A DNA stretch of 64,000 bases. It comes from Phycisphaerae bacterium. Lineage in GTDB: Bacteria; Planctomycetota; Phycisphaerae; UBA1845; UTPLA1. Positions 27,496 through 30,528 of this stretch are shown piece by piece; position 1 is the stretch's first letter; every line of letters starts with the position of its first letter. The stretch is taken from contig JAHBXN010000005.1 in assembly GCA_019636475.1 (NCBI GenBank), forward strand, positions 310,001-374,000, written 5' to 3'. The translations under genes were made by a program, and so were the position numbers. The notes under the pieces were generated by a model that ran no database searches, was not told where the DNA came from, and saw only the letters and a program-made list of their open reading frames with translations.

Positions 27496-28884
27496 ATGAA
27501 TCATACTTTTCGGCGGCGGCGGTGCGTTTCCGCCCTGCGTAATTTGACCGCGATGATCGCCGTGCTCGCGGCCGCACAATGCGTCGAGGCGCAGCAACCC
27601 ACCCAGCCGGCCGGCGCCAAAGCAGTGGCCCCGCCCCATCCACCAAAGAATTCGCCGACTCGAGCTTCGACGTCAGTCGTTGGCCCAAGCGCTCCAGCCG
27701 CGACGTCCGAGTTCGTCGGACCGCCGTACGATCAGGTCGACTCCGCCCGCGCAGTCGCGGGACAGCCGGCCAATCCCGCCGCGATCAAATCCGGGAAGGT
27801 CGTCCCCAATGTTCCAGCGCCGACTGTCCAGCTCAAGCCTGGCGAGGTGCCTGCGATCCGATTCGACACGCCGACATACGATTTCGGTTCGACGCGAGCC
27901 GGACCGGACATTCAGCACGAATTCTGGTTTACAAACACAGGCAACGGACCGCTGGAGATACTCAGCGTCAAGCCGTCCTGAGGCTGCACCGTTGCCGGTC
28001 AGTTTGACCGGATTGTTGAACCAGGCGACAGCGGCAAGATTCCGATTCAGATCAAGTCCGGACATGGAAACGGTCCGATGTCAAAATCGATCACCGTGCA
28101 CACCAACGTGCCGGGTCCGGACGCACAAGTCATCCTCACATTCAAGGGCGAGATCTGGCAGCCGATCCAACCGAGCGCCCCGGCTGTCGCCTTCGGTCGC
28201 ATCACGCCCGCCGATTTGGCCAATCCGGGCAAGCAGGCCATCACGCTGACGAATCGTACAGGCGGCCCGATCCAGTTTTCCGAGCCGAAAGTCAGTGTAA
28301 CTGGGTTTTCCGCAGCCATCGCGCCGATCGAAGGTACCGACAACTATGAACTGACCGTCACGGTCGTTCCGCCGCTGAAACCGGGAAACAACTCGGGCTG
28401 GATCGAAATGCAGACCGGTATCGCTGATCCGCCGACGGTACGCATCCCCATCAATGCCTTCGTTACGGCGGCCATCGATGTCATGCCTCCGTCACTCGTT
28501 TTGCCGCCGTCGCGGGTGGTCGATCTCTCGCGGCAGTTCTACGTTCGAACCAACGTGAATCGATCATTCAAGATCACGCGTTTATCGAGTTCCAACCCGC
28601 AAATCGCCGTGCAATCGACTGAACAAGCGGAGGGCAAGAGCTACCAGATCACGCTCACGATACCGGCGCAGTACGCCCCCTCGGATGATGCGGGTGACCT
28701 GGTGACGATCGAAACCGACGATCCCGAGGCCCCCTCGCTGAACATTCCGATCACCGTCGCCGCCGCTCGCAAACAGCCGGCGAACGCCGCGATTCACGGA
28801 GCTGCCGGTAGCCCCGCAGCGGTCGCTCCGAAGCCGAACCCCGGGGTGCAAACACCGATCGGCCCGGCCAAGACGCCTTCATGA
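27496..28884 (+). CDS. DUF1573 secreted protein with in-frame TGA, probable selenoprotein
   Basis: One frame runs from ATG 27496 to the stop at 28884 with a single internal TGA at 27979-27981 (codon 162). Residues 1-33 look like a signal peptide, 34-115 are Pro/Ala-rich, and from about 118 a DUF1573 domain reads AIRFDTPTYDFGSTRAG, FWFTNTGNGPLEILSVKPS, then TGA, then GCTVAGQFDRIVEPGDSG. In this family the block is normally S-C-G-C-T, so TGA stands exactly at the first Cys codon. After it the frame stays open for 300 codons with typical family sequence (beta-sandwich repeats to about residue 445). A hairpin 20 nt after the TGA fits a SECIS element. I therefore read residue 162 as selenocysteine giving a 462-residue exported protein with an adjacent Sec-Gly-Cys redox motif. 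Alternatives are a sequencing error or a fresh nonsense mutation. The tail overlaps the convergent phosphatase gene by 6 nt. Confidence 0.75.
27979..28011 (+). promoter_or_regulatory. TGA codon plus SECIS-like hairpin
   Basis: TGA is at 27979-27981. After 13 bases, CCGGTCA (27995-28001) pairs perfectly with TGACCGG (28005-28011), closing the three-base loop GTT (28002-28004). Bacterial SECIS elements sit just downstream of the UGA inside the coding region, with a short apical loop about 15-40 nt away and a guanine at the start of the loop that SelB recognises; all three conditions are met here (20 nt, G first). The stem is seen directly; the function is inference. Confidence 0.6.
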
Positions 28885-30528
28885 TGGTTTGACGATCACA
28901 AGCGTGACGTCATCCGCCGGCTCGCGCGGGCTGCAATGCTGCCGGACGGTCCGCGCGAGATCACCGGCGATTTCCGACGCCGTGCCGTCGGCGAGGCGCG
29001 CGAGTTCCGCGCCGACCCGATCCAATCCGAACTCCACTCCGTTCGCATCGACCGCTTCGGTCACGCCGTCGCTGCAGAGCAAAAGCGCCCGGACACCCGG
29101 CAAATTCCGCAACACCACGTCCTCATCCCATGTTGGCATAATGCCGAGGGGAATGCCCACTCGCGATGGAAATGCTTCAACCCGTCCGTCGCTCATCAAC
29201 CAGAGCGGCGCATGATGGCCGGCGTTGACGATCTCGACTTCACGACCGTCCGCAGACCATCGCACGATGATCATGGTCGCGAAGCAGTCCGGCGGGATGC
29301 TGTCGATCAGTGCCGAATTGACGCTGCCGATGATCTCAACGAGATCTTCATGGTGGCGAACCGCCAATCGAAACGAGCTTTGAAGTATGGCCGTTACGAA
29401 CGCGGCGGGAACGCCCTTGCCGGAAACATCCGCAATACTGACAAGCAAACGTCCCTTTGAGTCCATTCGGACATCGTAAATATCGCCGCTCATTTGATCG
29501 GCCGGCTGATTCAGCGCCGCAACCTCACCCCACGCCGGCTGCGGAATCGGCGACGGCATCAGCATCTTCTGCATCTCCCGACCGACATCGATGCGGCCTT
29601 TCAGTCGAGCATAGTCGCGCGCTTTGGCCTGAAGCTCGTCCACGCTGACCGCTCCCGCGGCCAGATCGACCGCTGCCATCGCGAAGTCAAGATCGGTCGT
29701 TTGAAATGGGAATCTCGAGAGGTCGCGGTCCGCGTACATGACGGCTCGGACCCGACCATCAACCATCACGGGGACACAAATCACGGAACCCGAACGGTTA
29801 TCAACGAGGCTTCGGGCGTCGGCATATCGCTGATCCTGAAGCACCTGTTGAATCAACATGCCCTGCCCGGCCGCGATGGTGTCATGCAACACCGAATGGC
29901 TGACGCCCAGTGGCTTATCGATTTCGGCACTGCGCGTTCGTGGTGCAAGGCGATAGATCGCGCCGGCCTCATCGACTCCCACGAGCACACAGCGATCGGC
30001 CGACAAACACCGCTGGAGCGCCGCATGAATGATCTGCCAGAACGAGCCGTTGTCCCGACGGGCCAGAATCAATCGGGACATCGCGTAGAGGTCTTCAAGC
30101 CGCTGCTGAATCACGGAGCCCGAGTCCTGCGATGTTCGCACATACGTCGGAACCACGCCGCTGTAACTCAGATGAATCGAGCGGTCGGATGCCTCGTTGG
30201 TGTCGCCCGTCTGATCATCGAGTACATTGATCGAGAAGGGGCGGACGTCGATCACGTCGCCGGCCGCCAGGATCGAACTCGACACCTTGCGGCCGTTCAC
30301 TCGGATGCCGCGCGCCGTGTCATGATCGACAATCCGCCAACCTTGCGGCGTGCGCTCGATCCACGCGTGCAGTTGGGCGACCTCATCGTCCTCAAGGCGT
30401 ATATCACAATCGACCGACCGGCCGATCGAAAGTCGCTCGCCGGCCAACCGAACTTTCCCGATCTGCCGCAACTCGCGACGGATCATCAGATTGAAATCGG
30501 ATTTCCCTGAGTCTGTCGGCATTTGCAT
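28879..30528 (-). CDS. FHA-GAF-PP2C (SpoIIE-type) serine phosphatase
   Basis: Predicted 549-residue cytoplasmic signalling protein. Residues 28-105 form an FHA domain (LSIGRSVDCDIRLEDDEVAQ, then GIRVNGRKV), which binds phosphothreonine. Residues about 145-300 look like a GAF sensor domain (LSADRCVLVGVDEAGAIYR, GSVICVPVMVDGRVRAVMYA). From about 335 follows a SpoIIE/RsbU-type PP2C phosphatase: MSGDIYDVRMDSKGRLLVSI, ADVSGKGVPAAFVTA, FATMIIVRWS, LLLCSDGVTEAVDANG and the terminal PADDVTLVIVK, carrying the metal-binding aspartates. Such proteins work in partner-switching control of sigma factors or in kinase/phosphatase networks. The start may be 30522 rather than 30528. Confidence 0.92.
   Translation of the reverse strand: MQMPTDSGKSDFNLMIRRELRQIGKVRLAGERLSIGRSVDCDIRLEDDEVAQLHAWIERTPQGWRIVDHDTARGIRVNGRKVSSSILAAGDVIDVRPFSINVLDDQTGDTNEASDRSIHLSYSGVVPTYVRTSQDSGSVIQQRLEDLYAMSRLILARRDNGSFWQIIHAALQRCLSADRCVLVGVDEAGAIYRLAPRTRSAEIDKPLGVSHSVLHDTIAAGQGMLIQQVLQDQRYADARSLVDNRSGSVICVPVMVDGRVRAVMYADRDLSRFPFQTTDLDFAMAAVDLAAGAVSVDELQAKARDYARLKGRIDVGREMQKMLMPSPIPQPAWGEVAALNQPADQMSGDIYDVRMDSKGRLLVSIADVSGKGVPAAFVTAILQSSFRLAVRHHEDLVEIIGSVNSALIDSIPPDCFATMIIVRWSADGREVEIVNAGHHAPLWLMSDGRVEAFPSRVGIPLGIMPTWDEDVVLRNLPGVRALLLCSDGVTEAVDANGVEFGLDRVGAELARLADGTASEIAGDLARTVRQHCSPREPADDVTLVIVKPS

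Follow-up and report, generated by a model that had tools for sequence, protein, structure and literature searches.

Known DUF1573 selenoproteins

DUF1573 (pfam07610) with the motif UGC is tabulated among the prokaryotic selenoproteins (PMC9312934, PMC13188914). Through PMC9312934 the entry leads back to Zhang & Gladyshev 2007, which, as cited there, concerns the delta symbiont of Olavius algarvensis. A protein named OS_HP2, with the same domain and a UxC motif, was reported from GOS metagenome data (PMC2398784), and NCBIfam holds the model NF041425, "OS_HP2 family (seleno)protein" (OS_HP2_seleno), with a curated cut-off of 100 bits.

The gene reported here lies on the plus strand at 27496..28884 of the window, by which we mean the whole 64,000-nucleotide stretch that was analysed. 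Like the OS_HP2/DUF1573 selenoproteins, its predicted product has a DUF1573 domain with Sec as the first residue of U-G-C, and it thus combines the pfam07610 domain and UGC motif that mark the class in PMC9312934 and PMC13188914. It scores 81.2 bits against NF041425, below 100, and by the NCBI threshold is not a member of that family. It also differs from OS_HP2 in its planctomycete host and in its length of 462 residues, which include a long conserved region past the domain. By domain and motif, it is a new planctomycete member of the known DUF1573 UGC kind. The original prediction of a probable new selenoprotein holds as regards the selenoprotein, which is supported by the machinery, the TGA/TGC exchange and the SECIS element described below, but not as regards a new kind, since OS_HP2 is already listed. 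Its companion remark, made before any search, that no DUF1573 member was known to have been described as a selenoprotein is contradicted by PMC9312934, PMC13188914, PMC2398784 and NF041425. We rejected a new selenoprotein family because OS_HP2/pfam07610 was published in 2007-2008 and is kept in recent reviews. No report of a planctomycete DUF1573 selenoprotein was found in the open-access literature searched.

Gene and domain organization

The frame opens with an ATG at 27496 and closes with a real stop, TGA, at 28882-28884. Its single internal stop is the TGA at 27979..27981 (codon 162), in the context ...VKPS-TGA-GCTVAGQFDR..., and no other stop or frameshift occurs across the 462 codons. 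An Ig-like DUF1573 domain spans residues 121-220 (27856..28155) and matches PF07610 with 82 bits against a gathering threshold of 26.1. The TGA falls inside this matched domain. As originally predicted, and as the frame, the Pfam match and the alignment of relatives all indicate, it occupies the position of the first Cys in the family CGCT motif. The TGC codon of Cys164 (27985..27987) supplies, by sequence and alignment, the partner residue of the putative Sec162 in Sec-Gly-Cys. By eye, a probable signal peptide can be recognized at the N-terminus (27496..27594), with an RRRR sequence, a hydrophobic stretch and a possible cleavage site after VEA.

The 300 codons 3' of the TGA are open, and none of 2000 shuffles of that stretch is equally open, which bears out the uninterrupted downstream frame noted in the original prediction. 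The conserved region of the protein extends about 200 residues beyond the DUF1573 domain, and the downstream half of the gene is kept in frame among relatives. The in-frame TGA is therefore flanked on both sides by conserved open frame, as in a bacterial selenoprotein gene. Automatic annotation is expected to split this gene at the TGA, and to do the same to dozens of its relatives within the order.

The genetic code is standard, because of 38 gene-like ORFs hand-picked within the window 27 terminate in TGA, among them motA, motB, an FHA-GAF-SpoIIE gene and the DUF1573 gene itself. A reassigned code, which the original prediction had also dismissed from the stops of motA, motB and other genes, is rejected on these grounds. 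The downstream neighbor, on the minus strand at 28879-30528, is an FHA-GAF-SpoIIE-type phosphatase.

The standing of TGA as the commonest stop within the window would also suit a genuine stop at codon 162, with a secreted product of 161 residues and a downstream part that is expressed separately or never. Because Sec is generally inserted with low efficiency, part of the product would probably be truncated even if the codon is recoded. A genuine stop would, however, split the DUF1573 domain midway, and both the downstream half, in frame, and the SECIS hairpin are kept in relatives. We consider this explanation very unlikely.

Exchange of selenocysteine and cysteine among relatives

A search of 61 genomes from the family and the order was carried out and the matches were aligned. 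TGA occurs in the codon-162 column, within S/G-U-G-C, in G006, G007, G010, G016 and G050 (two loci), and G463 contributes the eighth U-G-C locus when the window gene is counted. Other family members have TGC in this column. One of these is a paralogue in the source genome (G000, C1:346-1482) that is 45% identical to the window protein. The alignment of planctomycete relatives that had been suggested with the original prediction thus returns TGA or TGC at the position in question, as is expected of homologues of a bacterial selenoprotein. A larger alignment of 108 sequences has 53 in-frame TGAs, and 52 of these share the codon-162 column.

A single TGC to TGA change would suffice to produce the observed codon, whether as a sequencing or assembly error or as a recent nonsense mutation marking the decay of the gene. 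The same TGA is nevertheless repeated in seven other U-G-C loci from six other genomes and in about 40 loci of a sister clade, the hairpin that follows it shows synonymous covariation that preserves its pairing, and all 462 codons pass without a further stop or frameshift. The conservation of both TGA and hairpin in the comparative data refutes a pseudogene or sequencing error, and we regard this as an extremely improbable origin of the codon.

In a DUF1573 tree from which the motif columns were excluded, the eight members with U-G-C are interspersed with C-G-C sisters. Parsimony gives 11-13 Sec/Cys changes over the whole tree, and at least 6-7 are forced by the starred branches. The exchange extends to copies within one genome. 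In G007, a Sec copy and a Cys copy group as sisters in this tree, and G016 carries a Cys copy and a Sec copy in tandem on one contig (C269:1382-3795, L016).

Two further arrangements were seen among these genes. G492 has two Sec DUF1573 genes side by side (C19:10447-12654, L200), and a DUF1573 paralogue of the source genome (L061, C4:138384-139406) has Tyr (TAC) at the Sec/Cys position and keeps the second Cys. No relatives were found in viral contigs, and the plasmid search returned only two distant DUF1573 matches, in Phocaeicola and Parabacteroides records.

The SECIS hairpin

The predicted mRNA can form a conserved hairpin, CCGGUCA-GUU-UGACCGG, with a stem of 7 bp and a loop of three bases, after a spacer of 13 nt (27982-27994) from the TGA. 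The 5' arm CCGGUCA (27995..28001), the apical loop GUU (28002..28004) and the 3' arm UGACCGG (28005..28011) all lie in the coding frame on the plus strand. Pairing extends to 99% of the stem cells across 16 Sec loci and is accompanied by 16 double changes, a level that none of 500 shuffles reaches, and slid registers of the hairpin all give far lower pairing. In 11 Cys relatives, pairing in the same columns amounts to 48% and does not exceed that of shuffles. Cys-type DUF1573 genes (CGCT), including the paralogue in the source genome, consequently share the motif with the window gene but differ from it in having TGC instead of TGA and in not maintaining the hairpin.

When 46 Sec loci are considered, standard pairs account for 313 of 322 in the stem, and the loop starts with G in every one of the 46. 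The 3' arm holds an invariant Arg codon (CGN) whose synonymous third base covaries with the 5' arm. It can pair with the base that opens the stem in 43 of the 46 loci, against an expectation of 20.4. All four pair types occur, and no shuffle in 100000 is as high, in a test that ignores relatedness among the loci. The set of 46 was collected in part with a search pattern in which some inner stem bases, though not the outermost pair, were fixed. This covariation at a synonymous position argues for selection on the RNA and not on the protein. The hairpin region has an unremarkable fold z-score of -1.29 from its own sequence, and its support therefore comes from comparison and not from energy. With its in-frame position near the TGA and an apical loop that starts with G, as in bacterial selenoprotein genes, the hairpin at 27995-28011 is, by comparative sequence analysis, a bacterial SECIS element.

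A search pattern for this SECIS form has one match in the entire source genome, at the window site, and in the phylum outside the order its matches are near the level of the control pattern. In G003, four matches lie exactly 141 bases apart (C130:22027-22481); this array is probably a tandem repeat unrelated to selenoproteins.

Selenocysteine machinery

The source genome, which is 4.4 Mb in size and 95% complete, contains all of the components required of a bacterial Sec decoder, namely selA, selB, selD and a tRNA-Sec with anticodon UCA. A search for these genes proposed with the original prediction was therefore successful throughout, and the prediction withstands the chief refutation set out with it, a genome lacking this machinery. 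Its selB is above the curated cut-off, with 337 bits including the C-terminal part in the same frame, and is directly followed by selA with 511 bits (C4:365428-368801). The selD gene scores 371 bits and has an in-frame TGA of its own in the context NCAG-TGA-AGK. The tRNA-Sec scores 66 bits and is called by ARAGORN as SeC with anticodon TCA.

Because this machinery is complete, TGA and TGC exchange in relatives and the SECIS stem covaries, the window gene is very probably a selenoprotein gene. UGA codon 162 would almost certainly be decoded as Sec in the cell, by SelB and tRNA-Sec under the direction of the in-frame SECIS hairpin.

Several observations concern the machinery itself. The selD of the source genome (L113, C2:328684-329607) is likely a selenoprotein gene too. 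No tRNA-Sec above the Rfam cut-off was found in four genomes that have TGA-form DUF1573 genes of the sister clade (G028, G031, G046, G059). Three of these have a full selA and all four are incomplete drafts, and the missing tRNA-Sec probably reflects draft gaps or a divergent tRNA. In six genomes of one family, f4 (G019, G025, G029, G032, G047, G050), the profile match to selA breaks at position ~260. Its two parts share a single open frame but are separated by about 80-150 nt, an insertion in SelA common to part of the family.

Possible function of the Sec-Gly-Cys site

The multi-domain DUF1573 protein would be exported, as its N-terminal sequence suggests by eye. Single-sequence AlphaFold models are poor, and in the low-confidence model of the domain (pLDDT 59) the Sec appears to sit in a loop (fragment residue 48) after a strand (39-46). 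Sec162-Gly-Cys164 might form a selenenylsulfide/selenol redox pair at the surface. In the manner of a CxC site, such a pair could reduce or isomerize disulfides or scavenge oxidants outside the cytoplasm. The redox site suggested in the original prediction is plausible, and we lean somewhat toward a redox function as the simplest reading.

The main rival to a redox role supposes that the protein is a selenoprotein whose Sec-Gly-Cys binds a soft metal, with copper and mercury as examples, or serves as a structural link. CxC motifs bind metals too, and the domain is Ig-like and does not have a thioredoxin fold. Comparison of 20 loci with the window revealed no conserved neighbor gene, and hence neither a conserved redox neighbor nor an independent pointer to a redox partner. 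Against these points, a Sec with repeated Sec/Cys exchange would be typical of redox-active cysteines, and a purely structural disulfide rarely needs selenium. Metal binding or a structural role is thus possible, but we consider it doubtful. A sequence search gave no convincing PDB relatives.

A Gly-Sec-Gly sister clade

When a pattern of TGA plus hairpin was applied to 114 genomes of the order, in addition to the first search of 61 genomes, 38 distinct loci with Gly-Sec-Gly-x were found that have the same hairpin form and distance and lack the second Cys. All eight of those scanned with Pfam are above the DUF1573 cut-off. These loci (e.g., L048-L057 and L149-L206, with L149:1501, L160:1501, L200:1613 and 2873) fall into a single clade (SH-aLRT 100) that occupies 49 rows of the tree, and 44 of these rows have Sec. 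Four of the five non-TGA rows have C-C-G at the site (KGCCGSK, KTCCGTR, KPCCGAK, KACCGLS), and a conserved Cys pair flanks the G-U-G site (alignment columns 94 and 189). The window gene shares the TGA column and the SECIS distance and form with this clade. It differs in that its second Cys is present and in that the Cys relatives of the Gly-Sec-Gly form are C-C-G and not C-G-C, and it belongs to a separate clade.

At a threshold of 1e-50, a profile of the clade matched nothing in the 391 planctomycete genomes searched from outside the order, and no member was found in the source genome. Among the genomes searched, the clade looks confined to the order, and it looks undescribed. It is likely that the order holds two DUF1573 selenoprotein lines, one with U-G-C and a sister line with G-U-G that has no adjacent resolving Cys and whose rare Cys versions are mostly vicinal C-C-G, as though a single selenol could stand in for a vicinal dithiol. 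If so, the G-U-G clade would represent a new type of Sec site, carried by an extracytoplasmic, Ig-like, non-thioredoxin scaffold. DUF1573 selenoproteins appear to be common in the order, with a SECIS element strongly supported by synonymous covariation. Sec/Cys exchange within the family, sometimes between paralogues of the same genome, together with the G-U-G versus C-C-G forms, may provide a natural experiment on the role of Sec in an Ig-fold protein.

A third lineage, from family f30, comprises DUF1573 genes with U-G-C in seven genomes (G075, G143, G223, G262, G273, G284, G358; L285-L291), which suggests that Sec in DUF1573 is used in separate planctomycete groups. By eye, the f30 hairpin differs and lies nearer the TGA, for example as CGCGGG-GATTTCA-CCCGCG.
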